From Spirochaeta thermophila DSM 6192 (GTDB lineage: Bacteria; Spirochaetota; Spirochaetia; Winmispirales; Winmispiraceae), in NCBI RefSeq assembly GCF_000147075.1, contig NC_014484.1:372001-436000 (forward strand): a stretch of 64,000 nucleotides of DNA, in the 5' to 3' direction. Both the position numbers and the translations under genes were made by a program. This document shows, one piece after another, positions 45,375-62,883 of the stretch; within the stretch, counting starts at the first letter, position 1; each line of letters starts with the position of its first letter. The notes beneath the pieces are model-generated. The model was not told the origin of the DNA. It saw only the letters and a program-made list of their open reading frames with translations, and searched no databases.

Positions 45375-46653
45375 GGGCAGGGAACCCCTCGTACTCGGCC
45401 AGCCGTGCCACGTGAGGCCCCAGCTCGGCCAACCCCTCCTCGGTCACGTGGATCACCGACGAGAACCTGAGGAAATCGCGCACCGACACCGGCGAGAAGA
45501 CCTTCGCCTTCCCCCCTGTGGGGAGTACCGCGTTCGGCCCTGCCGCATAGTTGGCGAGGCTGAACGGCGCGTGCTCGCCCAGCAGGACCTCGCCTGCATA
45601 GGAGATACGCTTCAGCGTGGCGAACGGATCATGGGTCCGCACCTGCAGGTGCTCGGGGGCCCACTCGTTCACCACCTCCACCCCCTCCTCGAGCGAGTCC
45701 ACCAGGATGATCCCGCCGTAGCCCGCGAACACCGCCTGGACGAACTCACGCCGCGGCGAAGGCAGGCGGGGGATACACGAGAGCAGGTGGGCCTCCACCC
45801 GGCCGGCCAGCTCCCGCGACGGCGTCACGAGCAGGGCCGCCGAGTCCGCCCCGTGCTCCGCCTCGACCAGCAGATCGATCGCCACCTTCCAGGGATCGGC
45901 GCTCTCGTCCGCGAGGATCACCGACTCCGAAGGCCCTGCGGGAAGCCCGGTGTACACCAGGTGCGCCACGAGCCGCTTCGCCGCCGCCACGTAGGCGCTT
46001 CCCGGCCCGGTGATCATCGCCACTGGCGCGATCGACTCGGTCCCATGGGCGAGCGCCGCCACGGCCTGGGCCCCGCCCACGCGGTAGACCTCGTGCACCC
46101 CGCAGCGCCTCGCGGCATACAGGCACGCCGGGTTCACTGAGCCATCCTTCTCCGGCGGGGTCGTCATCACCACCCGCGGCACCCCGGCGAGGTGTGCCGG
46201 CACCGCGAGCATGTACACCATGGACGGAAAGCTCCCCCGTCCGCGGGGCACGTAGAGCCCGCACGAGGGCACGGGCGTGGCCCGCTCACCCGCCATCACC
46301 CCGGGCCGCACCTCTCTCATGGGAGAAGGCTCCGGCACCTGGGTGCGGTGGAACCGCTCCACGTTCTCTATCACGTAGTCGAGACTCTCCCGTATCTCCT
46401 CGGGGAGGGCCGCCTCTGCAGCCTCGAACTCCTCCTCGGACACCCTCAGCCGCTCGGGTGAGAGGACCACCCCGTCGAACTCCTTCGTGAACCGGATGAG
46501 GGCCGCATCCCCCTCGGTCCGCACCGCCTCCACCACCGGCCGCACCACTTCCTCCAGACGGGCGATGTCCTCCTCCGAACGGGAGAGGAGCCTTCGTCGT
46601 TCCTCAGGGGACAGATCCCCCCACACGTACACGTTCACCTTGAGATCGGCCAT
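45319..46653 (-). CDS. hisD: Histidinol dehydrogenase (HisD)
   Basis: A 444-residue enzyme oxidising histidinol to histidine with NAD. Conserved blocks: GLYVPRGRGSFPSMVYMLAVPA, GGAQAVAALAHGTESI, the metal-binding LVEAEHGADSAALL and the signature NEWAPEHLQV with the catalytic Glu-His. The usual Gln of the QAEHG metal motif is Glu here, seen in some HisD-like dehydrogenases, so a related alcohol substrate cannot be excluded. ATG at 46653 has only a weak ribosome-binding site. No other his gene is near; it is followed by folC with a 56-base overlap. Confidence 0.87.
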   Translation of the reverse strand: MADLKVNVYVWGDLSPEERRRLLSRSEEDIARLEEVVRPVVEAVRTEGDAALIRFTKEFDGVVLSPERLRVSEEEFEAAEAALPEEIRESLDYVIENVERFHRTQVPEPSPMREVRPGVMAGERATPVPSCGLYVPRGRGSFPSMVYMLAVPAHLAGVPRVVMTTPPEKDGSVNPACLYAARRCGVHEVYRVGGAQAVAALAHGTESIAPVAMITGPGSAYVAAAKRLVAHLVYTGLPAGPSESVILADESADPWKVAIDLLVEAEHGADSAALLVTPSRELAGRVEAHLLSCIPRLPSPRREFVQAVFAGYGGIILVDSLEEGVEVVNEWAPEHLQVRTHDPFATLKRISYAGEVLLGEHAPFSLANYAAGPNAVLPTGGKAKVFSPVSVRDFLRFSSVIHVTEEGLAELGPHVARLAEYEGFPAHAAAITYRATPGSYSPRG

Positions 46654-47046
46654 ACCCCCATGCTCGCACGCCCCCCGCTCTCCGGTCAAGACCAGCCGGC
46701 ACGGAAGATCGGTATGTACGTATGGTACGTGAGAGGTGAGGAGCCTCGGGAGGCGTTCGGTGAGGAGGCGCAACGATCGAGTGCATATCCTGTCGGACTG
46801 CGGACACCCACCGGATCCCCCGATCCTCGAGTGGCTCACGCATACACTCGCCCCCCGGTTCGAACGCTGTGCAACAGCCCGAATCGTAATCGAACGGCAA
46901 GGGAAAGAGGAGCCTGCCTCGGAGGTGGAACCTCGTTCCCAGGAGGGGAGACGGGTGCCTCCGCCCCGGGAGGCAACCGGCGTGGCGGGTGGACCTGCCG
47001 GGCCGCCTCGCTCCCGCGTGACGTGTCGATCGGCCTTCACCCCCCT
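46654..47046. other. 393-base stretch without a supported gene
   Basis: Between the end of nifV and the start of hisD, both on the minus strand. I see no protein-like frame, no tRNA and no clear terminator. It contains small hairpins, for example GAGGT-GGA-ACCTC at 46922-46934. It probably holds the nif operon end and the hisD promoter; a TTGACC on the minus strand about 45 bases upstream of hisD lacks a good -10. Confidence 0.5.
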
Positions 47047-48111
47047 CTACCCCTCCAGTCCCACCTCGCCTTTCATGATCCGGAAGAGGAGGTCCTCCAC
47101 CGGGGGAGGAAGCCGCACCCCCTGGGAGGCGAGGATCTCACCGAAGGCTTCCCTGCTCGCGTGCTTACCGGCGAGGACCCTCCTCACCCTCCCCACGAGG
47201 GAAGGGGAAAAGGGCTCGTAGGTGCCGGGATCCCTCATCACCCCCTTCTGATGGAGCCCCGACTCGTGGGAAAAGGCGTTCTCCCCCACCACGGACTTCC
47301 ACGGCGGCATCCTCACCCCGGTGATCCTCTCCAGGAGAGACGCAAGCCCTGGAAGGCGGGATGGATCCACCGAGGTCTCCCCTTCCGTAAGGACTCTGAT
47401 CGCCACGACCACCTCCTCCAATGGACAGAGACCTGCCCTCTCCCCCATCCCGCAGATCGAGGTGTCCACCCATGACGCCCCTGCCCTGATACCGGAGAGG
47501 GTATTGGCCACCGCAAGGCCCAGATCGTTGTGCATGTGGAGCTCCACAGGGATCTTCACGTGCCGAGCGAGGAACGATATCCGTTCGTAGGTCTCCCATG
47601 GGGCGGCGGTCCCTGTGGTATCCGCATACCGGAAGCGGAAGGCCCCCACCTCCTCGGCCACGCAGGCGATCTCGACGAGAAAGGAGAGATCCGCCCGTGA
47701 GGCATCCTCTGCACCCACGGAGACCATCCCCCCCTTCTCCCTCGCACACAGGACGGCCTCCCGGAGGAGGGATCGGACCCTCCCCCTGTCTCCCCCGAAT
47801 CGTATCCGTATGAGGATGTCCGATACCGGCACCGAGACGTGCAGGCGGACGAGTCCCAGGGAGAGCGATTCGAGGACGTCACGAGGAAGGGCTCTGTTCC
47901 ATCCCAACACCCGCTGCGGCGGGAGCCCATCCACTATCCGACGGATGGCCACCTTTTCCGCGCGACCCACGGCCGCGAAGCCCACCTCCACCTCATCCAC
48001 ACCGGCGTCGAGGAGGCGACGCGCGAGGAGGAACTTCTCCTCCGAGGAAAAGGCGAACCCCGCCGCCTGTTCTCCGTCGCGCAGCGTGGTGTCCACAATG
48101 CCGATCCTCAT
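47047..48111 (-). CDS. nifV: Homocitrate synthase
   Basis: A 354-residue enzyme of the isopropylmalate synthase family that makes homocitrate, the organic ligand of FeMo-co. DTTLRDGEQAAG, HMHNDLGLAVANTL and GENAFSHESGLHQKG are the metal and substrate motifs. Lack of a C-terminal regulatory domain fits NifV. Start overlaps the modB stop in ATGA. Last gene of the nif operon. Having nifV in the operon indicates a genuine Mo-nitrogenase rather than only nif-like reductases. Confidence 0.93.
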   Translation of the reverse strand: MRIGIVDTTLRDGEQAAGFAFSSEEKFLLARRLLDAGVDEVEVGFAAVGRAEKVAIRRIVDGLPPQRVLGWNRALPRDVLESLSLGLVRLHVSVPVSDILIRIRFGGDRGRVRSLLREAVLCAREKGGMVSVGAEDASRADLSFLVEIACVAEEVGAFRFRYADTTGTAAPWETYERISFLARHVKIPVELHMHNDLGLAVANTLSGIRAGASWVDTSICGMGERAGLCPLEEVVVAIRVLTEGETSVDPSRLPGLASLLERITGVRMPPWKSVVGENAFSHESGLHQKGVMRDPGTYEPFSPSLVGRVRRVLAGKHASREAFGEILASQGVRLPPPVEDLLFRIMKGEVGLEG

Positions 48112-48803
48112 CCTCTCCCCCTTCCCGAGGGCTCGGCGATCCTGTCTTCTATCACATGTACCACCGCGGTGATCCCGGTAGCCAGGACGAAGAGGATCAG
48201 GGCGTAGAGCCCTGCGAATTCCGCATCACCCATCATCACCTCCTGGTAGATGCCGAGGGAGAGGGTCTGGGTACGACCGGGGATGTTCCCCGCGATCATG
48301 AGCGTGATACCGAACTATCCCATGGCCCGGAGGAAGGCGAGCATCACCGAAGAGGAAAGCCCTCTCATCGCCATGGGAAGCTTCACCAGTAATAAGACGA
48401 GCACCTCATCGGCCCCGTCCATCCTGGCCGCGTGGAGCACATCCTCTTCTATGGACTCGAAATGACCCTTCATGCTCTTGAACACGATGGGAACCGTGAC
48501 CATCACCGCAGCGATCACCGCGGCGGCCTGGGTGAAGACGATCTCCACACCCAGCCAACGTTCGAGGACTCCCCCGATCGGGCCGTGGGATCCGAGCAGG
48601 AGGAGCAGGAAGTAGCCCGTCACCGCAGGCGGGAGGAACATGGGGACCGATATGCACACCTCCACGAGTATCACACCTCTCTGCCGCTTTCCCGCAAACA
48701 CCTGGGCGAGGACAACGCCTGCGAGGAGTGAGATCCCCGTCGCGATGGAGGCGATCTTGAGCGAGAGCACTATGGTATCCATGAGCATCATTCGATCCAT
48801 CAC
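48108..48803 (-). pseudogene. modB: Molybdate ABC permease, interrupted by an amber codon
   Basis: The frame encodes a full-length 231-codon ModB with five to six membrane helices, but codon 163 is TAG (48317-48315). It stands exactly where ModB proteins have the Glu of the conserved A-L-G-E-F-G motif: the sequence reads AFLRAMG, stop, FGITLMIAGNIPGRTQTL. One base change (GAG to TAG) explains it. The rest, including the segment after the stop and the ATGA overlap with nifV, is intact. GTG at 48803 or ATG at 48800 may start it. Truncation would remove the main ATPase-contact loop. Sequence error or suppression are alternatives. No modC is present nearby. Confidence 0.88.
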
Positions 48804-49568
48804 TCACTCCACGATGAATCCATGCCGGGAGAGGATCTGGCCCGCCTCCCTTCCGGTGAGGAAGGCGTACAGATCCTTCGCCCGGGTGGAGGCGAGTCCC
48901 CTTCGGGTGAGTCCGCAGACCTGGAGTATGGGACGGCCCTCGACGAGGAGGATCTCGTGAGCCACTTCCACGCCTTCGATCCCCGCCACATCGGATCGGA
49001 AGACGATCGCAGCATCGGCGTTCCCCATCTGAAACCAGAGGAGGGCCTGTCGCACGGTCTCCGCGAAGAAGAACTTCTCCCGTACCCTCTCGTACAGGGC
49101 CCCCTCGTGTTCGAAGATCCGACGCAGGTACTTCCCGCTCGCAGTCGTCTGGAGGTTGGGAACGGCGATCCTTCCCATTCCAGGGGAGAGGAGACAGGCG
49201 AGGGATCCCGGCGATTCCACGGGGTGGCCCGTATGGACCAGCACCACCAGGCTGTTCCTGCAGAGGGGAGTCACCCATCGCTCATCCGCATGCCCGGTCT
49301 TCACCAGTTCCCTCGCCTCCTCCTCGTTTCCCATGAGGAACACGTCGATGGGTGCCCCTTGCATGATCTGGGCCCTGAGCGCACCACTCGATCCTATGGT
49401 GATGCGCACCGCCACGCCCGACCGGTCCTCCCAGGAACGTGCAAGTTCGTCCACTGCATCGGTGAAGACCGCCGCCGCACCTATGGTGACGTGACCACCG
49501 GACTCCGCGGAAACCCCTCGTACAGCCAGCGCTGCAACGAGAAGGGTCGTCGCCACTCGACCACGCAT
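48804..49568 (-). CDS. modA: Molybdate-binding periplasmic protein
   Basis: A 254-residue ABC binding protein with a signal peptide (about residues 1-21, ending VSA). Ligand motifs fit ModA: GAAAVFTDAVDELA, FGSSGALRAQI-like IGSSGALRAQIMQGAPIDVFL, and GNADAAIVFRSDV. The start follows AGGAGGA within the gap after the [2Fe-2S] ferredoxin gene. Supplies molybdate for FeMo-co. Its stop abuts the modB start. Confidence 0.93.
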   Translation of the reverse strand: MRGRVATTLLVAALAVRGVSAESGGHVTIGAAAVFTDAVDELARSWEDRSGVAVRITIGSSGALRAQIMQGAPIDVFLMGNEEEARELVKTGHADERWVTPLCRNSLVVLVHTGHPVESPGSLACLLSPGMGRIAVPNLQTTASGKYLRRIFEHEGALYERVREKFFFAETVRQALLWFQMGNADAAIVFRSDVAGIEGVEVAHEILLVEGRPILQVCGLTRRGLASTRAKDLYAFLTGREAGQILSRHGFIVE

Positions 49569-49576
49569 GGTTCCTC

Positions 49577-49882
49577 CTATAGGAGCAGTCGTTCCACCGT
49601 CCTCCCCTCGAGGAGGGCGTCCAGTATCTCGTCGATGTCCTCTTCACCCTCGATTCCGCCGTACCAGAGATTGTCGGGTTGGATCACCACCACAGGTCCT
49701 TTTTCACAGAGGTTCATGCACCCGGTGAGGGTGACCACCACATCCCCCATACCCCGATCCTCCACCGCGCTTTGCAGATAGCCTGCGAGCGGGAGCGATC
49801 CTCTCCTCGCACAGGTGCCCGTCGCACCCCCTCCTGTCCGGTACCCTCCGCACATAAGGATCTGTCGTTCGGGTCGTTTCAT
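49577..49882 (-). CDS. Thioredoxin-like [2Fe-2S] ferredoxin of the nif operon
   Basis: A 101-residue protein with four cysteines that match the thioredoxin-fold [2Fe-2S] family: C11 and C23 in CGGYRTGGGATGTC, and the pair GCMNLCEKGP, followed by VVVIQPDNLWYGG. ATG at 49882 follows AAGGAGGG. Lies between nifB and modA, the position where related ferredoxins (FeSII/Shethna-type or nif-linked) occur. May protect or donate electrons to nitrogenase; role by context. Confidence 0.85.
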   Translation of the reverse strand: MKRPERQILMCGGYRTGGGATGTCARRGSLPLAGYLQSAVEDRGMGDVVVTLTGCMNLCEKGPVVVIQPDNLWYGGIEGEEDIDEILDALLEGRTVERLLL

Positions 49883-49899
49883 GACACACCCTCCTTGTC

Positions 49900-51141
49900 T
49901 CATACACCGCAGCCGGTTCCGGAACCGGCACACGAGGGACCACACCCCCAGAACGGACGTTCCACCCGGGAGGTGACCCCATGCCTGAACACCTCGTCGA
50001 GGACCTCCTGAATGAGTCCCCCCGACACCACCACACTGATACCCGCCTCACCCAGTATACGGGAGGGGTTCCCACCCACTCCCGAGGTGAGGAGCACTTC
50101 ACAGTCCCCGATGATCCGAGAGAGGAGACGCCACCGCTCCTCCCCACCGCCCCTCTCTGGGGTCTCCCGCCGTTCCAGGAAGACATATCCCTGATCCCCA
50201 CGCTCGTACACATACACTTCCTCGGCCTCGCCGAGATGCTGATTGATGAGCATCCCTTCCATGGTGGTGACCGCGATCCTCTCGGGTGGTCGCGTCTCCA
50301 CGCGGTGATCCTTCGTGAGATCCATCACGGAACCCTCCTCTCCCAGGAATCCCAGGGCGTCCGCCCTGCATCTGACGCAATGGGACATCACGGGCAGGAT
50401 ACGAGCCACATCCCTCCGGAGTTCGCTCATGAATCGGGGATCGGGCTCACCTATATGTGCGAACCTGGTCCCTTCGACGGGATAGAGCGGGATGGGATTG
50501 ATGATGTCCGCCCCCCATGCGGCCGTCTCCTTCGCCACCTCCCTCACATGGGTATCGTTCACCCCTGGTATCACGATGGTGTTCACCTTCACCACCAGGC
50601 CCTTCGCCTTGAGCGACACGATGGCCTCCTGCTGCCGATCGATCAGGAGCCGGGCCGCCTCCCTTCCCCCCCTCACCCGTCGCTCGTACCTTACCCAGGG
50701 ATAGATCCGCTCCCCCACCTCTGGGTGCACTGCATTCACCGTCACCGTGACGTGGGAGACTCTGAGGTCGGCGAGCTCTTCCACATACTCCGGAAGGGCG
50801 AGGCCGTTGGTCGCCACACACAGGAGGAGGTCCGGGTGCCTGCTCCGTACACCCCTGAGTGTCGAGAGGGTCTCATCCGGGTTTGCGAACGGATCTCCGG
50901 GGCCGGCGATCCCCACCACCGTGAGATCGGGAAACCGTTCCTTGAGGAGATCCACCACCTCGCAGGCCTCGTCCGGGTCGAGGAGCCCGCTCGTCACCCC
51001 GGGCCGAGACTCGTTCACGCAGTCGAACTTCCGGTTGCAGTAGTGGCACTGGATGTTGCACCGAGGCGCCACGGGAAGATGTACCCTCCTGTAACGGCTC
51101 CGCGCCTCATCGTCGAAGCAGGGATGTCGTGCAGTGTCCAT
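49900..51141 (-). CDS. nifB: Nitrogenase cofactor biosynthesis protein NifB with NifX-like C-domain
   Basis: A 413-residue radical SAM protein that builds NifB-co, the 8Fe-9S-C core. The SAM cluster motif is CNIQCHYCNRKFDC, with GIAGPGDPFANP and NPIPLYPVEGTRF following. Residues ~300-400 form a NifX/NafY-like cofactor-binding domain (IAVTTMEGMLINQHLGEAEEVYVYE), ending in a Cys-rich tail CGPSCAGSGTGC. ATG at 51141 follows GAGGAG; an upstream ATG at 51171 lies inside nifN. The fused carrier domain may replace the separate nifX missing from this operon. Confidence 0.95.
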   Translation of the reverse strand: MDTARHPCFDDEARSRYRRVHLPVAPRCNIQCHYCNRKFDCVNESRPGVTSGLLDPDEACEVVDLLKERFPDLTVVGIAGPGDPFANPDETLSTLRGVRSRHPDLLLCVATNGLALPEYVEELADLRVSHVTVTVNAVHPEVGERIYPWVRYERRVRGGREAARLLIDRQQEAIVSLKAKGLVVKVNTIVIPGVNDTHVREVAKETAAWGADIINPIPLYPVEGTRFAHIGEPDPRFMSELRRDVARILPVMSHCVRCRADALGFLGEEGSVMDLTKDHRVETRPPERIAVTTMEGMLINQHLGEAEEVYVYERGDQGYVFLERRETPERGGGEERWRLLSRIIGDCEVLLTSGVGGNPSRILGEAGISVVVSGGLIQEVLDEVFRHGVTSRVERPFWGCGPSCAGSGTGCGV

Positions 51142-51151
51142 CACACACTCC

Positions 51152-52507
51152 TCACATGGTGAAGTAGGCATAGGGGCTCCGCTCCTGCTCTCTCTCGATG
51201 AGGGCGTTGACCACCCGCTCGAAGAGCGAGAGAGTACCCTCGTAGCCCAATATCCGTATCCGGTGTCCCCCCAGCCTGTCGTGGATTGGAAACCCTACCC
51301 TCACGAGGGGGACGCCCAGGCCTCTGGCGATCTTGTAACCCTTGCTGTTCCCCATGAGCAGATCGATCCCCGCATCCTTCGCCGCCATCTCCATGTCGTC
51401 GAAACTCGCACCGCTCAGTACCAGGATGTCCCGGTCTCCTCCCAGAACCTGGAGCCTCTCCCGGAAACCCGGCGTCTGTCTCCCCGTGGCGCATATCGCA
51501 GGGATCATCCCCACCTCCATACAGAACCTCGCAAGGGCGTAGACGAGCTCATCCTCGCCGTAGACCATGACCCGCTTCCCGAAGACATACTTGTGTCCGT
51601 CCGCATACGTATCGAGGACCCTGCCGCGCACCTGCCGGTACCGTTCGGAGAGGGCTTTCGTTCCGATCCGCTCCAGAGCCCCGATCCACTCGTCGGTGGC
51701 GCATACCCCCACGGGCACTCCCGTGGAGACGAGGGGTACGCCATGGACATCCTCGAGCATCCTTCCGGGGGAATCGTCCCCGTGGAATACCCCCATCTCC
51801 ACGGTACAGAGGGCGCTCCCCATCCTCCTCATGAGGAACAGGGGTGTCCCCCCTGGGGGGATACCCACGTAGTGCGTCCACGCAGGACCATCGAGGCTCT
51901 CCGAATAATCGGGGAACACGATCGGGGTGAAACCCGCCTGCGAGAAGAGTTCCTTGAGGAACCGCAGGTCCTCGCAGGAGAGAAGCTGGGTGTTGAGGAC
52001 ATTGACGTAGGGTGTTCGAGGATGTCCTCCACCCCCTTCCCCGGGGACGAGCGCCGCGAGACTCGCCTGGATGGCGGTGAGGAACCCATCCTGATGGGTA
52101 CCGCGATAGCTGGGGGTGGGGGCCAGGACGAAGACCGGGCCCTCATCCCCTCCCTGCCGCCGCCGGTATTCGTGCACGAACATGCTCACGTCCTCCCCTA
52201 TGGTCTCGGCGAGGCACGTGGTCGCCACCCCCACCACGGCGGGCCTGTACTGCTGGAGCACGTTCTCCACCGCGGTGAGGAAGTTGTCCCTCCCGCCGAA
52301 GATCACGGAGTCCTCGTGGATGCTGGAGCTCGCGATATCGACGGGTTCCCTGAAGTGACCCACGAGATACCGCCTGATGTAGGTGGCGCACCCCTGGGCC
52401 CCGTGCAAGAGGGGGAAACACCGCTCTATGCCCCTGTAGACCAGCGTGGCGCCGAGGGGCGCACACTGCGCACATGGATTCACCGTGGGTCTATAGGACG
52501 CTTCCAT
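51152..52507 (-). CDS. nifN: Nitrogenase cofactor scaffold subunit NifN
   Basis: A 451-residue NifK paralogue that pairs with NifE to mature FeMo-co. Starts RPTVNPCAQCAPLGA, with GIERCFPLLHGAQGCATYIRRY and VVGVATTCLAETIGEDV as cluster-region motifs. Start overlaps the nifE stop by 17 bases. Normal length and unbroken, unlike its partner nifE. Followed by nifB after 10 bases. Confidence 0.93.
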   Translation of the reverse strand: MEASYRPTVNPCAQCAPLGATLVYRGIERCFPLLHGAQGCATYIRRYLVGHFREPVDIASSSIHEDSVIFGGRDNFLTAVENVLQQYRPAVVGVATTCLAETIGEDVSMFVHEYRRRQGGDEGPVFVLAPTPSYRGTHQDGFLTAIQASLAALVPGEGGGGHPRTPYVNVLNTQLLSCEDLRFLKELFSQAGFTPIVFPDYSESLDGPAWTHYVGIPPGGTPLFLMRRMGSALCTVEMGVFHGDDSPGRMLEDVHGVPLVSTGVPVGVCATDEWIGALERIGTKALSERYRQVRGRVLDTYADGHKYVFGKRVMVYGEDELVYALARFCMEVGMIPAICATGRQTPGFRERLQVLGGDRDILVLSGASFDDMEMAAKDAGIDLLMGNSKGYKIARGLGVPLVRVGFPIHDRLGGHRIRILGYEGTLSLFERVVNALIEREQERSPYAYFTM

Positions 52508-53854
52508 GATCGACCCCCTCCCTGAAGAGGCGCCACACCGGAGACATGAGGGATGCGTGGACCTCCCTCGCGAAGTTCACCATCCCCTCGAACCCTGCGA
52601 GCGGCAGCTTCCTCTCGTGGTTGTGGTCACAAAAGGCCACCCCCAGCTTGTAGCTGAGAGGACGCTCCTTCACCCCTCCTATGAGGAGGTGCACGTCCTT
52701 CTCCTTGAGAAAGTGGGCGAGCTCGGCCGGGTTGCTGTCGTCGAGGATCACGGTACCCTCTTCACAGATACCTGCGATGGTCTCGTAGTCCTCCCGGCTT
52801 CCGGTCTGGGATCCCACCACCGGGGTGGAGATACCGAGGAGACGCAGGGCCTTGATGAGCGAAAACGCCTTGAAGGCCCCACCCACATAGATCGCCGCCC
52901 TTGATCCCTCGAGGTCTCGCCTGTACCGTTCGAGTTCGGCATACACCTCCGAGACCTTCGAAGCCACGAGTTCTCGCGTCCTGGTGAGCATTCCCGGTGC
53001 CGAGGGTTCGAAGAACCGCGCCACCTGGTAGAGGGCCTCGGCCGTGTCCTCCACTCCGAAGTACGACACCCTGATGAACGGTATGGCGTAACGCTCCTCC
53101 ATCTTCTTTGCGAGGAGAGTGGTGGACCCGGAACACTGCACCACATTGAGGGCGGCGCTCCCGGCCTGTGCGATCTCCTCTATGGAGGAGTCGCCCGTGA
53201 TCGTGGAGACCACCCGTATCCCCATCTCCTCGTAGTACCTGCGGATGAGCCAGGTTTCCCCCGCAATGTTGAACTCTCCGATGATGTTGATGCTGCACGG
53301 AAGGGTGGGGCGCTCCCCCCCGAGGAGACGATCCTGAAGAGCACATCGCAGGCGGCCCGGTATCCATCTTTCTTGGTGCCCTTGAATCCCTCCGAGTGCA
53401 CGGGATAGACCGGTATTCCTTTCTCTCGTTCCACCTTGCGGCACACCGCGTCCACGTCATCCCCTATCACCCCCACGATGCACGTGGCGTAGACAAAGGC
53501 GGCCCGGGGGTTGAAACGATCGATGAGCTCGCAAAGGACCCGATAGAGTTTCTTCTCTCCCCCATGGATGACCTCCGACTCCTTGAGATCGGTGGAAAAG
53601 CTGTACCGGTGGAGCTCCACATCGCTCGAGAGCGCCCCCCGGATGTCCCAGGTGTAGGAGGCGCATCCCACAGGCCCGTGCACCACGTGGAGTACGTCCT
53701 TTATGGGATAGAGCACCACTCTCGATCCGCAGAAGGTACAGGCACGCTGGCTCACACTCCCGGCGAGGCTCGGCCGGTCGCAGACGATATCGAAGGTTCT
53801 CCCGCCCTTCACATAGAGCTGACCTTCCCTGCCCTTGAGTATACACACGCTCAT
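52491..53854 (-). pseudogene. nifE: Nitrogenase cofactor scaffold subunit NifE, split by a frameshift at a G7 run
   Basis: NifE sequence runs in one frame from 53854 to about 53320 (CTFCGSRVVLYPIKDVLHVVHGPVGC..., then GTKKDGYRAACDVLF) and continues in another frame from about 53320 to 52491 (INIIGEFNIAGETW, VGGVKERPL). The break is at seven Gs on the coding strand (C7 at 53315-53321). Eight Gs, or a -1 slip, would restore a normal ~454-residue protein. The codon phase TC-G GGG GGG equals a -1 slippery heptamer. NifE is essential for FeMo-co in most diazotrophs. Cause could be sequence error, mutation, phase variation or slippage; residues on both sides are well conserved. Confidence 0.9.
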
Positions 53855-53881
53855 ACGGCCCTCCCTGTCGTCGGCACGCGG

Positions 53882-55264
53882 TCACATCACCAGCTCGAAA
53901 CTCTCCTCCGGCACGGTGGCATCCACCCGTTCCAGGAAGGCGTTGAGTATCATCTCCAGGAGACGGACGGCACCGCGGTACCCCACGATCGGGAAATACT
54001 GGTGCCCCACCCTGTCGAGGATGGGGAATCCCACCCTCACCGAGGGGATGTTCTCGTCCCGCGCGATGTACTTGGTGTGGGTGTTCCCGATGATGAGATC
54101 CACCGGATCGTTCTTTATCCACTGATGGAGGAGGAAGAGATCTCCGGGGGCCGCGAAGTTGGGCCTCTTGTCGGGTGCCTTCTCCCTGAAGAGTTCCTCC
54201 ATCCTCCGCTCTATCTTCTTGCTCTGCATGCCGGTGACGATGTGTCGCACATCCATCTCGAGGTCGAGGAGGAACTCGACGAGGGGGAAGAGATGATCGG
54301 GATCTCCGGCCACCGCCACACGTTTCCCGTAGAGATACTGGTGCATATCCGCCACGAGATCCACCACACGTGCCCGCTCCTCTGCGATGTCCTCCGGGAC
54401 AGGCACCCCTGTGTGCCGACTCAGCGCCATCACGAATCGGTCGGTGGCCGCAAGGCCGAGGGGGAGATCGAGGACTTCACACGGCACACCGCACTTCGCA
54501 TCGAGGGCCCGGGCTGCAGGGCCTGCGGCGAACCGCCCCAGCCCCAACGTCGCTATGGCTTCTCCTGCGGTGACGAGCTCCGACACCCTCGTGCCGCCCC
54601 GGGGAAACATCTTGAACGCCCCTGTGAGCCCGGTGTTGAGCACCCCGGAGGTGTCGGGGAACATGACCACCGCAACCCCGAAGGAAGAGGAGATCCTGCG
54701 GAGTTCCTCCATGTCCGGTGGATCCACGAACCCGGGGACGAGGTTGATCTGATCCGACCGCTTCCGGGAGGGGACGGCGAAGTAATCCACCATGGCCTTG
54801 ACCATCGAGGCGTATCCCGTGATGTGCGTACCCACGTAGCTCGGGGTATTCGCATGGAAGACGTGTTTTCCCCTGGGGATGAGTCCGTTGTCCTTGGCCT
54901 TCTTCACGATCTGGGGTATGTCGTCACCGATGGTCTCGGAGAGACAGGTGGTATGGACGGCGATCACGTCGGGATCGTAGAGGGAGAAGATATTGGCGAT
55001 CGCATCCATGAGGTTCCCCATCCCGCCGAAGACGCTCGCCCCCTCCGTGAACGAACTGGTGGTGGCCATCACCGGCTCCTTGTAGTGCCGGGTGAGCATG
55101 CTCCTGTGATAGGCGCAGCACCCCTGGGAGCCGTGGCTGTGGGGCATGCAACGGTGTATCCCCAGGGCGGCATACATAGCCCCTATCGGCTGACATGTCT
55201 TCACCGGGTTCACCACCAGGTTTTTCCGTTCCACGATCTTCTCAGTCGTGTGTCGCATGAGCAT
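53882..55264 (-). CDS. nifK: Nitrogenase MoFe protein beta subunit
   Basis: A 460-residue NifK. P-cluster region motifs: NPVKTCQPIGAMYAALGI, MPHSHGSQGCCAYHRSML and HTTCLSETIGDD. It lacks the ~50-residue N-terminal extension of Azotobacter-type NifK, matching the short beta subunit of cluster III (Clostridium pasteurianum-like) enzymes. ATG at 55264 follows GAGGAGGAG and overlaps nifD by 23 bases. Confidence 0.96.
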   Translation of the reverse strand: MLMRHTTEKIVERKNLVVNPVKTCQPIGAMYAALGIHRCMPHSHGSQGCCAYHRSMLTRHYKEPVMATTSSFTEGASVFGGMGNLMDAIANIFSLYDPDVIAVHTTCLSETIGDDIPQIVKKAKDNGLIPRGKHVFHANTPSYVGTHITGYASMVKAMVDYFAVPSRKRSDQINLVPGFVDPPDMEELRRISSSFGVAVVMFPDTSGVLNTGLTGAFKMFPRGGTRVSELVTAGEAIATLGLGRFAAGPAARALDAKCGVPCEVLDLPLGLAATDRFVMALSRHTGVPVPEDIAEERARVVDLVADMHQYLYGKRVAVAGDPDHLFPLVEFLLDLEMDVRHIVTGMQSKKIERRMEELFREKAPDKRPNFAAPGDLFLLHQWIKNDPVDLIIGNTHTKYIARDENIPSVRVGFPILDRVGHQYFPIVGYRGAVRLLEMILNAFLERVDATVPEESFELVM

Positions 55265-56912
55265 AGGACTCCTCCTCTCTCTCTTTCACATAGGCACCTT
55301 CGAGTGGGGCGGTCTTCTCCCAGGGCGGACAGACCATCTGCCATATCCGGCTGTTCACCATCCGGTCTATCTCCCGGTAGAAGTTGATAGCTCCCTTGAA
55401 TCCCGCATAGGGACCGCTGTAGTCGTAGTTGTGCAGCTGCTTCATGGGGAGGCCGAACTTCTGGATGACGTACTTCTCCTTGATCCCTGCGCAGAAGATG
55501 TGCGGACGAATCCGTTCGATGAGGACCTCGGCCTCATAGGCGTTGAGGTCGTCTATGACGAGGGACTCCTCGTCCATCTCGGGCATCATACCCCTATAGT
55601 CCATGAACTCGATTCCCAGGGCCTTGAGTTTCTCGGCCTGTTCCTGCGTGACCCTTGGCCTATACCGGACCGGATCCGGTCCCACCTCGAGCTCCTCGAT
55701 GTTCCTCGAGTCGGCGTCTATCTTGATATAGGGGAGGACCCTCCTGCCCTCGTAGTCGTCCCTGTGCGCGAACTCGTATCCGGCCGCAACGGTCCGCATA
55801 CCGAGTTCTTCGAAGAGTGCCTGGTAGTGGTGGGCTCTCGAGCCTCCCACGAAGAGCATGGCGATCTTACCCTCTGTTCGTGGATAGACCTCTTCCCTCA
55901 CCTTTTCCACCTCCGCCATCTCCTCTGAGATCACCTCCTCCACCCGGGCCGTGAGCTCGGGATCGTCGAAGAAGGCCGCGATCCTCCTCAGGGACTTGGC
56001 CGTGGCTGCGGCCCCCAGGAAGTTGATCTTCACCCATGGGATGCCGTATTTCTTTTCCATCATCTCCGCCATGTAGTTGATGGACCGGTGACACATCACC
56101 AGATTGAGGTCGGCCGTATGGGCCCTCGTGAGATCCTCATAGCACGAGTTCCCGCTGAAGGTGGAAACCAGGGTGATACCGCACCGCTCGAACAGGCGTT
56201 CCACCTCGAAGGCATCACCTCCGATGTTGTACTCCCCCAGCAGGTTGACCTTGAACCGACCCTCTTTCACCTCGTCGTTCAGTCCCACCACATCCGTGAA
56301 GAGCTTGTTGTTCGCGATGTGGTGACCCGCCGACTGGCTCACCCCTTTGTACCCCTCGCAACTGAAGGCGAAGATGTTCACCTCCGGATATTTCTCTTCC
56401 ATCTCCTTCGCAACCGCGTGGATGTCGTCTCCTATGAGGCCCACGGGGCAGGTGGCGAATATCCCTATGGCCTTCGGATGGAACGCGGCGATGGCCTCTT
56501 CGATCGCAGCCTTGAGCTTCTTCTCGCCACCAAAGATGATCTCGTTCTCCGTGAGATCGGTGGTGAAGGCATAAGGCAGGAAGTTCTGGTCCTCCTCGGT
56601 ACGCGGTTTCGTCTGGTTCCTGCGGGTGAGCCATGAATAGAACCCGCACCCTATGGGGCCGTGGGTGATCTGGAGGATGTCCCTCGTGGGACCGAGGACC
56701 ACGCCTTTACAGCCTGCATAACAACAGCCCCTCATGGTGAGGATGCCGGGGATGGTCCTCACATTGGCGACGATCTCGGGCGGGGTTCCGGTTTCGGGAT
56801 CCTTTCGGTTGATCACCACCTGTTTCGCCCTCTTTCTTGCCACTTTGGCGGGATATCGTTCGAGGATCTCCTCCCGTATCTTTTCGAGATCGAATCGTTC
56901 GAGCCCTTCCAT
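55242..56912 (-). CDS. nifD: Nitrogenase MoFe protein alpha subunit
   Basis: A 556-residue NifD. P-cluster cysteines are in MRGCCYAGCKG, HGPIGCGFYSW and FATCPVGLIGDD (C155). FeMo-co ligands are C274 (NLVMCHRSINYM) and H494 (MKQLHNYDYSGP). A ~50-residue insertion around residues 380-435 is the hallmark of cluster III alpha subunits. ATG at 56912 follows AGGAGGA. With nifI1/nifI2 between nifH and nifD, this is a cluster III Mo-nitrogenase. All catalytic residues appear intact. Confidence 0.97.
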   Translation of the reverse strand: MEGLERFDLEKIREEILERYPAKVARKRAKQVVINRKDPETGTPPEIVANVRTIPGILTMRGCCYAGCKGVVLGPTRDILQITHGPIGCGFYSWLTRRNQTKPRTEEDQNFLPYAFTTDLTENEIIFGGEKKLKAAIEEAIAAFHPKAIGIFATCPVGLIGDDIHAVAKEMEEKYPEVNIFAFSCEGYKGVSQSAGHHIANNKLFTDVVGLNDEVKEGRFKVNLLGEYNIGGDAFEVERLFERCGITLVSTFSGNSCYEDLTRAHTADLNLVMCHRSINYMAEMMEKKYGIPWVKINFLGAAATAKSLRRIAAFFDDPELTARVEEVISEEMAEVEKVREEVYPRTEGKIAMLFVGGSRAHHYQALFEELGMRTVAAGYEFAHRDDYEGRRVLPYIKIDADSRNIEELEVGPDPVRYRPRVTQEQAEKLKALGIEFMDYRGMMPEMDEESLVIDDLNAYEAEVLIERIRPHIFCAGIKEKYVIQKFGLPMKQLHNYDYSGPYAGFKGAINFYREIDRMVNSRIWQMVCPPWEKTAPLEGAYVKEREEESYAHATHD

Positions 56913-56922
56913 GTGTCTCCTC

Positions 56923-57300
56923 CTAGTCGTCGAGGACACCGTCCCCGTTCTCTCCGGTTCGTATCCGCACTGCGTCCTCTACGGGCAGCACGAATATCTT
57001 TCCGTCACCCGGCTTGCCTGTGCGATTGACCGAGATGAGGGTCTTCACCACCTTCGGTACCAGGCGATTGGGCACCACCATGATGAGGAGGCGTTTGGGG
57101 ATGAGGCGCTGCCCCGATCCCAGCTGGGCGATGGCCTCCTCGTATCCCTGTTCCGCCCCTTTGAGGACCTTGAAGTCAACCAGGCCCTTTCCCCTTCCAA
57201 GGCACTCGGTGGCCGTGAGGGAAGCCACACCAGCCTCGGAAAGGGCCTCCTTGGTACGGTTCATCATGTTCATACGGATGACCGCCAGGATCTCCTTCAT
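56923..57300 (-). CDS. nifI2: PII-family nitrogenase regulator NifI2
   Basis: A 125-residue GlnB-like protein, second of the pair between nifH and nifD. The PII core is clear (LGRGKGLVDF, GDGKIFVLPVEDAVRIRTGE) with a T-loop unlike that of GlnB. In methanogens the NifI1/NifI2 complex binds dinitrogenase and switches it off when 2-oxoglutarate is low. Start overlaps the nifI1 stop in ATGA. Confidence 0.93.
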   Translation of the reverse strand: MKEILAVIRMNMMNRTKEALSEAGVASLTATECLGRGKGLVDFKVLKGAEQGYEEAIAQLGSGQRLIPKRLLIMVVPNRLVPKVVKTLISVNRTGKPGDGKIFVLPVEDAVRIRTGENGDGVLDD

Positions 57301-57653
57301 AGTTTCACCTCTTCCACACGTCCGTCGGGGAGCTCCCGGATGGCCGAACTTATGGTGTAGGCCTCCTCGAGGGGGGCCACGAAGATCTTACCGTCCCCGA
57401 AGGCCCCCTTGTCCCCGGTCCGAGCGGCCCGGATGATGGTCTTGATCACCAGATCCCTCTCGGAGTCCTTCACGGCGATGAGGAGGAGCTCCTTGGGAAG
57501 CTCGTCGTAGACCACGTTGCCGATCTTTATACCACGTTGCTTGCCCCTACCGTGGACCGAGAGCTTGGTCACCGCTGGGAACCCCGCGGCCATGAGTTCC
57601 TCCAGGACGTTGTCCACCTTTTCGGGACGCACGATCGCCTTGATCATCACCAT
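57297..57653 (-). CDS. nifI1: PII-family nitrogenase regulator NifI1
   Basis: A 118-residue GlnB-like protein directly after nifH. It has IKAIVRPEKVDNVLEELMAAG, VHGRGKQRGI and AFGDGKIFVAPLEEAYTISS. Two starts are possible (57653 or 57647). Partner of NifI2 for post-translational control of nitrogenase by ammonium or 2-oxoglutarate. No draT/draG genes are present, as expected for this type. Confidence 0.93.
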   Translation of the reverse strand: MVMIKAIVRPEKVDNVLEELMAAGFPAVTKLSVHGRGKQRGIKIGNVVYDELPKELLLIAVKDSERDLVIKTIIRAARTGDKGAFGDGKIFVAPLEEAYTISSAIRELPDGRVEEVKL

Positions 57654-57671
57654 CGTCTTCCTCCTCGTCGT

Positions 57672-58589
<918 letters not shown>

Positions 58590-58631
58590 TCAAATCCTGA
58601 CAAAAAAGGTAATATTACTTTGTCTGCCTAT

Positions 58632-58659
58632 ATGTAGGACGATATCTTTGATTCTACAT
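58632..58659. promoter_or_regulatory. Candidate upstream activator site of the nif operon
   Basis: ATGTAG (58632-58637) and CTACAT (58654-58659) are perfect inverted six-base arms 16 bases apart, about 110 bases upstream of the -12 element. This resembles an enhancer placement but not the NifA site TGT-N10-ACA, and differs from the repeat at the xyl locus. Confidence 0.45.
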
Positions 58660-59168
58660 TTATGTACTATAAAAGGCTGTTTTTTACTCTCTCGTGGAAA
58701 AATGGGCTCGGAGGTCTTTCTCTCCGTTCCTGGATCCTACATCGAGGTAGTACCGGCCTTCCTCTGGGGGGTCTCCCTCATCGGACTGTAACGGGGCTCA
58801 CGCACTCCATACAAGCTACGGCTCCATGTCACCACTCGTCCTCGGTGGTGCACGAATCTGTCTCGCCGTGACCTCAGCACGTGGATCGGGTGCGGGGAGG
58901 GAGGCCTCCGGTGTCTACTCCACGCACAGGTCGCTGCGTTCCGGCGACGGGAAGCCCCCGAACCTGCCCCGTCAGGTGGGGGTCTCTCTCCTTGGGACTC
59001 CTCTTCTTTCTGACTCGAGGGAATGAGACCACCCTTCCGGTGCGGCCGTTTTCAGTCAGACCTGCTCGTATTCGGCCTTCTGATTCTACACACTATACCC
59101 AATGCGGATCTGTGTACCGTGAGATTGACCTGAGATGCCGAGGGTGAAGGCTTTCCTCTATATTTTCG
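58660..59168. other. Long non-coding stretch upstream of nifH
   Basis: About 500 bases with no protein-like frame, tRNA or recognised RNA. It includes an AT-rich part near the nif enhancer, then GC-rich DNA with small hairpins. I see no inverted terminal repeats or other sign of a mobile element. Confidence 0.4.
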
Positions 59169-59197
59169 TTGACAGCGAGGGATTTGAGTCATAGAAT
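59169..59197 (+). promoter_or_regulatory. Consensus-like promoter upstream of two small genes
   Basis: TTGACA (59169-59174) and TAGAAT (59192-59197) are 17 bases apart. An ATG follows at 59207 (small peptide) and the signal-peptide gene starts at 59328. Confidence 0.7.
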
Positions 59198-59206
59198 AGA
59201 ATCGAC

Positions 59207-59308
59207 ATGTGCGATAAGTGTGGGTACGCAATGGGCTCCGTGTGTGATCAAGGAGGCAGATGCCTTCGGCGTGTTGTTCCCAAGGCTGTCAAAGGAGATC
59301 ATGCCTGA
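59207..59308 (+). CDS. Possible small Cys-containing peptide
   Basis: A 33-residue frame starting MCDKCGYAMGSVCDQGG, with cysteines at 2, 5, 13 and 19 and a basic end. It begins nine bases after the -10 of a good promoter and has no Shine-Dalgarno, matching the leaderless pattern seen elsewhere here. It ends 19 bases before the next start. It could be a real small metal-binding peptide, a leader peptide, or chance. Confidence 0.3.
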   Translation: MCDKCGYAMGSVCDQGGRCLRRVVPKAVKGDHA

Positions 59309-59327
59309 CATGTTCGGAGGTGTGAGG

Positions 59328-59899
59328 ATGAAGAGACATGTCATACTGGGCGTGTGTGTGCTCTTCTCTCTTACCCAGATGAGCGCCTCAGACGAAAAAA
59401 TAGGTTTCCTCCTCTATGGACCCGATTTCATGATAAGTATCCCCCTTCCCTCCTATTGGGAAGTGGATATGGAATTCGCACATAGGAATAGAATCGACGG
59501 ATTTTTCTTCATCAAAGAGGCGGGGATCAGAAACTCTCCTGTTGGGATAATGGTAGTGTTGGCTCGGAAACCGAATGAGGAAGCGACGTTGCAGGATTAC
59601 ATAGAGTACGATAAACGAAAATTGATGGGTTATTATCCCAATTATGTTCTGAAAAACTCGTAATCGAAGATAGAACACAGAAAAACGGGTTCACCGTTGA
59701 GCTGTTTGAGTTCCAGGATAGATCGGACAGGGGGCATTATCAAAATATCGCCTATATAGATTGTAATGCTCCCTATTTTGTCAAACTCTACATCGACTGC
59801 AAGAGAAAGAGTGGAAATGCAAAGTATATAAAGGATTTCATGGAAGCCGTTTATGGGCTTTCGTATATGGATGTGGAAGTCCAAAGACCGAGCCTCTGA
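59328..59899 (+). pseudogene. Small exported protein gene with frameshift at an A5 run
   Basis: Starts with a signal peptide (MKRHVILGVCVLFSLTQMSA) after GGAGG at 59315-59319. The frame stops at 59663, just past five As (59652-59656). One base more, or a -1 slip, joins it to a second frame that runs to 59899 with similar composition (KLVIEDRTQKNGFTVELFEF, then FVKLYIDCKRKSGNAKYIKDFM). The combined ~190-residue product has no recognised family. Its base composition is markedly more AT-rich than the neighbours, a sign of recent transfer or lack of selection. Confidence 0.65.
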
Positions 59900-60170
59900 C
59901 CGCCACTCCCACTGAACCAGGCGCGGTCCGTTCGCCCGCCCTGTACGGGTGAGTGAGGGCATTTCTTGATCCCGTGTGGCCTTCTCGTTCGGGCACTCGC
60001 CGGTAGGCACGCGGGCGGACTTCGGGGAGATGCTCCCCTCTCGGGGTGCGGCTCTTCCCCCGGTGGAGGACCTCCTCTCACGGACGAGGAGGGGCGAGCC
60101 GGGACGGTGGAGGCCGACCGGCACCTCAGGCGGATGTGAGGTGGCCCGGCCGGTCGATGCCCCGTGCGGC
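59900..60170. other. 271-base intergenic stretch
   Basis: Between two converging genes. I see no gene, no strong terminator and no repeat, only GC-rich sequence with small hairpins such as CCTCCTC with GAGGAGG near 60070-60090. Confidence 0.4.
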
Positions 60171-62234
60171 TCATCTCCCCAGGAGGGAGCCGGCGGCGTC
60201 TTTGAGGAGCTCGCTCGCCTTTTCCTTCACTTCGTCTGTCTTCTCCTCGAGCAGCTCCTGCCGGAGGCGGGAGATCCGGTCTTCGAGGGCCCTGCGGTGG
60301 CTCTCCAGGTCTTCCCTGAGGCCTTGTGCGCCGGCGCGGAGGGCCTCGCTCCGGCGGGAAAGATCGTCCAGACGAGTGGTTTCCCCGGAGAGGGCCGCGA
60401 GGGAGTCCCGGATACGGGCCTCCAGTTCCTCCTCGATCCGGGATGCGAGTTCACTCTTCTGGGTGTCCAGCGCACGGGCGAGACGTTCTGCGAGGGAGGA
60501 GAAGAGGGGACTCGTGACCTCGAGGGATTCCTCCTGATCCTGTTTCCGGTACGAGACGGTGAGGGAGAGGCTCTCTTCGCCTTCCAGGAGTGGTGCGACG
60601 AGGTGTCCCGGCCCGCCGGTGGGGGCAAGGTGTGGTCCGGCGAGCGAGAGGCTGCCCCCGGCCGTGAGGGTGCGGGGGTAGGTGCCCGATGCCCGGAAGG
60701 ATGCGCTCCCCGTGGCGGAGAGTGCACCGAAGAGGGGAAAGGATCGGTCCCGGAGTTCGAGGCCTTCCGCCTCGAGGGAGAGGGTATAGGTGGGCTCGTC
60801 CTTCGAGAGGTCGAGGGTGCCCTGCGCCCCCACCCGGGGGGACCCGGTGTAGGAGAGGCGGAGGGTGAGGGGTGTGTGGATGAGGGAGGGATGGCTCGTG
60901 AGGTCGGTGAGTTCCAGGGAGAGGGTACCGCCCGGTAGGATGCCCGACCCTGACAGGTGCCGGAGCCAGAACCCCGGCCGCCGCTTCACGGGAAAGTGCA
61001 CCACCCGGCCTGTGGGAGCCTCCCGCCGGTGTCCGGGGGAGCCCTCTCTGCGCCGGGCGAGGGTGAGACAGGCTTCCACCCCCTTCCGGGCGTATGCGAG
61101 ATAGGTTCGGGCCTCGTCCTTGAGGATCGAGGCGGTGACCTCGGAGAGGAGGCGGGCGATGGCCTCGCCGTCGGGCCTGAGGAACGAGGAGAGGTAGGCG
61201 CTGTCGTGCTCCACCGCGCCGCGGAGCTGCCGTTCGAGTGCTCGTGCCCGGGAGATCCGGTCCTCGATGGCACGGGAGAGGGCCCCGGCCTCGTCGTAGA
61301 GGAGGCTCGCCTCTTTCGTGAGGGGTTCCGCGTCGGAGACGAGTGCCGTGAGGGCAGCAGGGTCGGAGATGCGCGAGGGGTTGGTGCGGGTGAGCTCCTT
61401 CACGCGAGAGGTGAGGTCCCGGAGCCGACGGGAGAGGCGGTCGAGGTCGGCCTCGAAGGACCGTGGGGCCTCCCGGATGAGGGCCTCGACCTCCCGTCGT
61501 GCCGCGACCACCTGGAGCCGGTCCGCCTCCCGGGAGAGCAGGGCCTCCACGTCGAGCGCGGAGGGGTCGAGGACGGCGGCAAGGACGGAGGCGGGGTCCG
61601 GCCCTCCCTCCGAAGGGGGGGACGGGGAGGCCGCTTCTTCCTGCTCGGCCCCTTCCTGCGCGGGGAGGTCCCCCGGTTCGGTGCGGGCCGTGCCGAAGGC
61701 GAGGCCTTCGAGCCGGAGCGTCTTCACCGTGAGGCTTCCCCACAGGAGGGCTTCGGGGTCGAGCCACACCTCGACGGGGCCTGCCTCGAAGAGGTTGTGC
61801 ATGGGGGACGACCTGTCCGCCACCTCCACGTGGGCGATGGTGAGCCTGAGGGAGAAAGGAGAGAGGCGGAGTCCGGTCACCTCGGCCTGGGCCCCGAAGG
61901 CGAGTTCCAGCCCCCGTTCCAGGGAGCGCTCGAGCAGGGGACCCGCGAGGAAGAGCGTGAAGACCAGGATCACACCCGCAAGGAGGCCGAGGAGGATGAG
62001 CGGACCGGCCGAGATGAGGCGTCGGTTGGCCTTTATCTCCCGGTGGAGGCGGGCGAGTCGTTCCCTCTCGCCCGGTGTGAGGTCCCCCCGCAGGAGGAAG
62101 CGCCCGTCCGTTTCGGTGAAGCAGGAGGAGAAGAACTCCCTGTCCGCGGGGATTTCCAGGAAGCGTGTCATGGAGGAGAGGGCTTTGGGGGTGAGAGGTC
62201 TCTTGAGTGCACGGGGAAGGCGGCGTGCGGCCAT
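60171..62234 (-). CDS. TIGR03545-family envelope protein
   Basis: A 687-residue protein with one membrane helix (about residues 75-97, LISAGPLILLGLLAGVILVF) after a cytosolic N-terminus. The large outer part starts with an AsmA-like stretch (LERGLELAFGAQAEVTGLRL), has long charged coiled coils (residues ~240-400 and 560-680) and beta domains between them. This matches the TIGR03545 family, seen only in bacteria with outer membranes and paired with TIGR03546. ATG at 62234 after AGGAGG. Probably spans the periplasm; function unknown, lipid transport or envelope maintenance being plausible from the AsmA resemblance. Confidence 0.8.
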   Translation of the reverse strand: MAARRLPRALKRPLTPKALSSMTRFLEIPADREFFSSCFTETDGRFLLRGDLTPGERERLARLHREIKANRRLISAGPLILLGLLAGVILVFTLFLAGPLLERSLERGLELAFGAQAEVTGLRLSPFSLRLTIAHVEVADRSSPMHNLFEAGPVEVWLDPEALLWGSLTVKTLRLEGLAFGTARTEPGDLPAQEGAEQEEAASPSPPSEGGPDPASVLAAVLDPSALDVEALLSREADRLQVVAARREVEALIREAPRSFEADLDRLSRRLRDLTSRVKELTRTNPSRISDPAALTALVSDAEPLTKEASLLYDEAGALSRAIEDRISRARALERQLRGAVEHDSAYLSSFLRPDGEAIARLLSEVTASILKDEARTYLAYARKGVEACLTLARRREGSPGHRREAPTGRVVHFPVKRRPGFWLRHLSGSGILPGGTLSLELTDLTSHPSLIHTPLTLRLSYTGSPRVGAQGTLDLSKDEPTYTLSLEAEGLELRDRSFPLFGALSATGSASFRASGTYPRTLTAGGSLSLAGPHLAPTGGPGHLVAPLLEGEESLSLTVSYRKQDQEESLEVTSPLFSSLAERLARALDTQKSELASRIEEELEARIRDSLAALSGETTRLDDLSRRSEALRAGAQGLREDLESHRRALEDRISRLRQELLEEKTDEVKEKASELLKDAAGSLLGR

Positions 62235-62242
62235 GCGTCCTC

Positions 62243-62779
62243 CTAGTGTACCAGGTGCAGGATCCGTGAGGTCTTCTCTATGGCCTCCTTGAGTCGGGCT
62301 ACGAAGGGGATGCGGAGGAGGGCCTTGTACCAGCGACTCTGGACGAGGCGTTGTGCCATGTGGGTTCGGTAGCGGTCCACCAGGAACCGGAAAAGGAAGA
62401 AGACCGGCGGCCAGAGGAGGGTGCCCAGCGTGAGTCCGCCCATGACCAGCGTGTGGTTGAACCTGAAGAGAGGGACAAGGGGGAGGTTGTAGAGGGATGT
62501 CCACACCGACACGAGAGCCGGGTGGGTGAGGACGGCCCAGCCTACGGCGTCGGTGAGAGGGGTGAGGAGGGGAAGTGCGAGTTTCACGAGTGCCAGTACG
62601 AGGAGTTTCGCGGCATGGTTGTGCACCAGGATGAGGGAGAAGAGGAAGAGGAGGATCCACAGGAGGTTGCCTGCGGGGATGCAACCGAGGAGCAGACCCC
62701 AGGCGATCCCGGCGGCGATGTGTTCCTTGCGCACATTGGTGTTGAGGGCCACGATGATGCGTGCGAGGGCCTTCACCAT
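62243..62779 (-). CDS. TIGR03546-family (DUF2062-like) membrane protein
   Basis: A 178-residue protein with about three hydrophobic segments (GIAWGLLLGCIPAGNLLWILLFLFSLILV, LLVLALVKLALPLLTPL, and VMGGLTLGTLLWPPVFFLF). It matches the DUF2062-like TIGR03546 family, found next to TIGR03545. It is translated first, with the large partner starting eight bases after its stop. No clear Shine-Dalgarno; a CATACT lies 11 bases before the start. Function unknown. Confidence 0.82.
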   Translation of the reverse strand: MVKALARIIVALNTNVRKEHIAAGIAWGLLLGCIPAGNLLWILLFLFSLILVHNHAAKLLVLALVKLALPLLTPLTDAVGWAVLTHPALVSVWTSLYNLPLVPLFRFNHTLVMGGLTLGTLLWPPVFFLFRFLVDRYRTHMAQRLVQSRWYKALLRIPFVARLKEAIEKTSRILHLVH

Positions 62780-62828
62780 ACCACTGTTGTAGTATGGGTG
62801 GAAGGAAAAGGCAAGGCGGCGCGGGCAC

Positions 62829-62857
62829 TTGCCCCTTCTCGTTCCTCTGTCTATGCT
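62829..62857 (+). promoter_or_regulatory. Promoter for the AIM24-family gene
   Basis: TTGCCC (62829-62834) and TATGCT (62852-62857) are 17 bases apart, leading to a normal ~20-base leader with GGGGGAG before the ATG at 62884. Confidence 0.6.
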
Positions 62858-62883
62858 GGAGGAAACAGACGGGGGAGCGTGTG

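Follow-up and report, generated by a model that had tools for sequence, protein, structure and literature searches.

An amber codon in modB and a frameshift in nifE in the nitrogen-fixation cluster of Spirochaeta thermophila DSM 6192

Why does the molybdate permease gene of a nitrogen-fixation (nif) cluster carry an in-frame stop codon exactly where its protein family has a conserved glutamate? We examined this for modB of Spirochaeta thermophila DSM 6192, within a stretch of 64,000 nucleotides of the deposited genome, positions 372001-436000 (hereafter the window). The answer that we favour, and consider probable without being certain of it, is that the stop arose recently by nonsense mutation, in a nif cluster that is dispensable and beginning to decay and that would be inactive as deposited. 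The features at the site are the following.

48108..48803, minus strand: modB, molybdate ABC permease, 231 codons, interrupted at codon 163 (TIGR02141, 190.5 bits when read through)
48315..48317, minus strand: in-frame TAG, codon 163 of modB, in the place of the conserved Glu
48369..48449, minus strand: EAA or ATPase-contact loop of ModB, residues 119-145 (from alignment to 2onk and the structure model)

The triplet CTA on the plus strand at 48315-48317 is TAG on the minus strand (GCC ATG GGA TAG TTC GGT ATC across the site), where it forms codon 163 of the 231-codon gene and closes an open reading frame of 162 amino acids (48315-48803). Past the TAG the frame stays open for 68 sense codons, up to a TGA at 48108-48110, and it is clean on both sides. 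With the TAG read as Glu, the resulting 231-residue product matches the molybdate permease profile TIGR02141 over its full length at 190.5 bits, against a curated cut-off of 182.6 bits; the gene is thus a ModB by its profile, while its frame is interrupted by the TAG at codon 163.

Glu is the residue aligned to the TAG in two homologues of solved structure, 2onk and 3d31, and in 37 of the 38 homologues scoring above 90 bits (the remaining one has Asp), and the E163 column is invariant in a 15-row ModB alignment. ModB loci found by pattern were excluded from this evidence, because the search pattern itself contained the Glu. The sequence and both comparisons therefore confirm the original prediction of a TAG at a conserved Glu, whose proposed motif holds for the Glu and fails in its letters: the local motif is RAMG*FG rather than ALGEFG. 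In a sample of 296 genomes of the phylum, 61 have a modB above the curated cut-off, and DSM 6192 alone among them has an internal stop (1/61); on this count the stop is more than chance. Downstream of the stop, modB retains 7 of 9 residues that are invariant in relatives. The sequence flanking the stop is intact, as had been predicted, and this points to a recent change or an error, two of the three origins first proposed. GAG is plausible as the ancestral codon, and no more than plausible because the sister species is without the locus.

The truncation of the permease, also predicted, removes a different part from the one expected. In an AlphaFold2 model (mean pLDDT 85.7), the EAA loop is built of helices 120-128 and 133-144; next comes a membrane helix, 146-162, whose end is at the Glu position, and helices 165-171, 181-191 and 194-223 are lost downstream of the stop. 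The EAA loop lies upstream of codon 163 and so is retained, and the last membrane segments are gone. It was therefore wrong to place the truncation before the ATPase-contact loop, since segment 119-145 precedes the stop. From the model, a permease that ends after residue 162 would be unlikely to work, and the anticipated weakening of molybdenum supply to nitrogenase is supported as a likely cost.

The third origin first proposed was suppression, in which a suppressor tRNA or pyrrolysine would carry translation through the amber codon and yield a full-length ModB. The conserved C-terminal frame of modB would suit this, and an atypical tRNA could escape both RF00005 and ARAGORN. However, none of the 46 tRNA genes found with the Rfam RF00005 tRNA model has a CUA anticodon (anticodons read by ARAGORN), and the genome gives no match to the pyrrolysyl-tRNA synthetase (PylS) profile, so that neither mark of amber suppression or pyrrolysine recoding is present. 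TAG is also the ordinary terminator of four other genes of the cluster, nifV, fdx, nifE and nifI2, and efficient suppression would therefore harm the same cluster. Finally, the base that follows the modB stop is T, which is not known as a leaky context. We thus regard read-through as very improbable, and this part of the prediction falls away. More remote still is a ModB that functions as two pieces, the second (63 amino acids) starting at an ATG at 48299, 15 bases past the stop: the break would fall in the middle of the modelled membrane core, and no split ModB occurs among the relatives above the cut-off.

The nif setting of modB is borne out by the gene order, nifH-nifI1-nifI2-nifD-nifK-nifE-nifN-nifB-fdx-modA-modB-nifV, with the following features.

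57672..58523, minus strand: nifH, intact (TIGR01287, 458.1 bits)
56923..57653, minus strand: nifI2 and nifI1, PII-type regulators
55242..56939, minus strand: nifD, intact (TIGR01282, 667.9 bits)
53882..55264, minus strand: nifK, intact (TIGR01286, 430.8 bits)
52491..53854, minus strand: nifE, frameshifted, N-terminal part 53180-53854 and C-terminal part 52491-53444 in another frame
53315..53321, minus strand: run of seven G, site of the nifE frame change
51152..52507, minus strand: nifN-like gene, frame intact
49900..51171, minus strand: nifB, intact (TIGR01290, 382 bits)
49577..49945, minus strand: 2Fe-2S ferredoxin gene (best match NF041612, 66 bits, below cut-off)
48804..49568, minus strand: modA, molybdate-binding protein, intact (TIGR01256, 119 bits, cut-off 62.5)
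47047..48111, minus strand: nifV-like homocitrate synthase (TIGR02660, 389 bits, below the cut-off of 462.9)
59996..60155, plus strand: decayed 3' end of a second nifV, in opposite orientation (protein match with a frame break)

Other Spirochaetota nif clusters (e.g. L219, L220 and L222) have the same order, nifI1-I2-D-K-E-N-B-fdx-modA-modB-...-nifV, but in them nifE is continuous and modB is separated from nifV by an ABC ATPase gene, and S. thermophila shows neither feature. The structural nif genes give no sign of decay, nifD retaining 260 of 269 invariant residues. The nif genes are flanked by nifV-like ends, with the nifV-like gene next to modB on one side and the decayed fragment beyond nifH; the fragment is 73% identical to 46992-47175 across 184 columns. 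Upstream of nifH (58001-60000) the G+C content falls to 52%, against 58-70% around it.

The second lesion of the cluster lies in nifE. The profile TIGR01283 matches this gene in two frames, at profile positions 25-187 and 198-455, and alignment with twelve intact NifE proteins places the crossing between 53321 and 53294, at the G7 run. In all 16 other genomes of the phylum that carry nif genes, nifE is a single unbroken gene. As the two parts keep 88 of 98 and 103 of 114 invariant residues, about 90% in both, the break is either young or an error. FeMo-cofactor assembly needs nifE, and nitrogenase would suffer more from a broken nifE than from a broken modB. Within the set nifHDKENB, all six of which should be intact in a predicted diazotroph, nifE is in two frames and the other five are open. 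The sequence, first described as otherwise clean, is so for modB and not for the cluster, with its nifE frameshift, missing modC and decayed nifV fragment.

We then consider the missing modC. The modB gene overlaps nifV by four bases (48108-48111) with no modC between them, and there is no match to an ATPase gene near modB within 44001-60000. Six other nif loci of Spirochaetota (L219-L224) have an ABC ATPase gene adjoining modB, and in four of these (L219, L220, L222 and L223) it stands between modB and nifV in the order found here. The adjacent ModC that is usual for a ModB, while not strictly defining, is thus absent. The top match to the modC profile in the genome scores 179 bits, short of the 285 required, and its own profile identifies it as a UgpC-type sugar ATPase (514 bits, cut-off 432). 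The modC profile sets a high bar: one modC next to modB in Spirochaetota reaches 225.6 and another modB-adjacent ATPase 170.7, and because such ATPases of relatives also fall below the cut-off, the cut-off alone is not decisive.

The EAA loop of this ModB reads MDGA where most ModBs carry TLG. Across 78 ModB loci with enough flanking sequence, an ATPase gene is lacking within 2 kb in 18 of the 19 that have this Asp-Gly (DG) and in 4 of the 59 that do not (Fisher 6e-13, a value that ignores relatedness). About five DG changes, that of S. thermophila included, fall on a ModB tree built without the DG columns, which gives just two to four independent pairs, too few for a formal test. Among loci L127-L206, DG goes together with the lack of a neighbouring ATPase gene mostly in Bacillales, and also in one MAG each of Anaerolineae (L185) and Firmicutes (L196). 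Simple decay as the source of the modC absence is weakened by this association; on the sequences compared, the absence may instead reflect an old switch of partner. Tentatively, and with less than even confidence, we suggest that before the stop arose ModAB could have been an orphan importer on a shared sugar-type ATPase like UgpC or MsmX, with the Asp-Gly of the EAA loop marking such orphans.

Shared ATPases of the MsmX, MsmK and UgpC kind serve sugar importers without an ATPase of their own (PMC7658222); the known cases described there concern sugars, with no mention of molybdate. The likeness to these multitask ATPases is that the permease has no ATPase gene to itself and that a UgpC-type ATPase is encoded elsewhere in the genome. 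The difference is that their known clients are sugar importers, and the molybdate pairing here is putative. Compared with ModB itself (TIGR02141; 2onk, 3d31), the protein of S. thermophila passes the profile with the stop read through and aligns at the conserved Glu position, but differs in the TAG at that Glu, the DG in the EAA loop and the lack of an adjacent modC.

A comparison with the sister species, the same-genus genome G001 (2,560,222 bases), shows that the cluster lies in a segment absent from it.

46690..62827, no strand assigned: segment absent from the sister species, 16.1 kb, with 26 bp between the flanks in the sister

We found no nifH, nifE or modB in the sister, and the comparison gave no counterpart for the modB stop codon, its locus being absent. 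In the outgroup (G002), a TIGR03545 gene and the right-flank gene stand beside hisD, and unrelated genes fill the slot that holds nif in S. thermophila. Since the outgroup has the TIGR03545 end at the same place, the sister has deleted at least that end of the segment; it either lost the nif part or never had it. In both cases the nif cluster is dispensable in the genus. A strain-specific gain of the 16-kb segment is unsupported for its TIGR03545 end, which is present in the outgroup between hisD and the right-flank gene. A plasmid origin was also considered, and here there were short matches only, all to nifH among the matches listed.

The same end of the segment holds a 908-residue open reading frame (60171-62897, minus strand) whose match to TIGR03545 begins only at about residue 246; the part before this overlaps a second frame on the minus strand that matches a separate outgroup gene (L229:8800-9450), and the true start of the 908-residue frame is probably further in. 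Elsewhere in the window, an inverted pair at 9344-9629 and 25789-26074 (about 288 bases, 69% identity) perhaps represents paralogous genes.

DSM 6192 as deposited therefore has a modB stop, a nifE frameshift, a missing modC, no canonical amber suppressor and a segment that its sister does not have. Could the deposited assembly be in error, with modB and perhaps nifE intact in the cell? All surroundings of the modB stop are conserved, the nifE break falls on a G7 run, where sequencing errors are common, and both genes look constrained until now. On the other hand, the modB lesion is a substitution and lies in no homopolymer, and the assembly is a single contig of 2,472,645 bases that is 99.99% complete. 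The part shared with the sister contains about 27 runs of at least seven G or C, and at none of them is the frame of a clear gene body changed without compensation. For this comparison a listing of indels replaced a six-frame comparison of open reading frames, which was swamped by the shadow frames of the GC-rich genome. In the first 46.7 kb, read by eye against the open reading frame list, frame-changing indels relative to the sister are intergenic, mutually compensating or near an uncertain gene start; no uncompensated one lies in a clear gene body over the about 46 kb compared, and for that reason the lesions appear to gather in the nif part. This pattern speaks for an assembly of good quality. 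We consider an assembly error unlikely, while giving it real weight.

The favoured reading is recent loss; as in a recent pseudogene, the sequence to either side of the lesion is conserved. The breaks in modB and nifE would be young, because most invariant residues persist around them. A lineage that no longer needs nif under present or laboratory conditions would come under relaxed selection; the nonsense mutation would end ModB after residue 162, keeping the contact loop, losing the last membrane segments and leaving no working permease; and the nifE frameshift would leave no active Mo-nitrogenase as deposited, whatever the molybdenum uptake. We infer that both lesions are biological, abolish function and are due to relaxed selection. 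Against this, either point lesion could stem from faulty assembly, the G7 run of nifE being a typical site; one stop and one frameshift are a small sample; and relaxed selection is invisible in the structural nif genes. Nonsense and frameshift pseudogenes of dispensable clusters show the same isolated lesions in conserved genes and absence of the cluster from the nearest relative, but S. thermophila differs from them in its very few lesions and in structural nif genes that look intact.

Recent loss may also have taken place in culture, with the wild population intact and the sequenced stock having lost modB and nifE during growth on fixed nitrogen. The very young look of the lesions would fit, whereas the absence of modC and the nifV remnant clearly go further back. 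We judge such a laboratory mutation unlikely; as a sub-case of recent loss, it shares part of the confidence given to that explanation. With recent loss preferred, the modB stop and the broken cluster are ordinary in kind, and the cluster looks newly broken rather than specially regulated.

A gene survey counts S. thermophila among the spirochaetes with all six nifHDKENB genes (PMC8399215). If the sequence is right, nifE and modB of DSM 6192 are broken, and counts of presence and absence would class as a diazotroph a strain that does not fix nitrogen. The missing modC and the changed EAA loop point to a possible new client type of shared ABC ATPases. The finding thus serves to correct diazotrophy predictions from gene counts and points towards orphan molybdate importers. 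With a sister that has no nif genes and a broken cluster in DSM 6192, the genus would offer a small and testable example of nitrogen fixation in the course of being lost.
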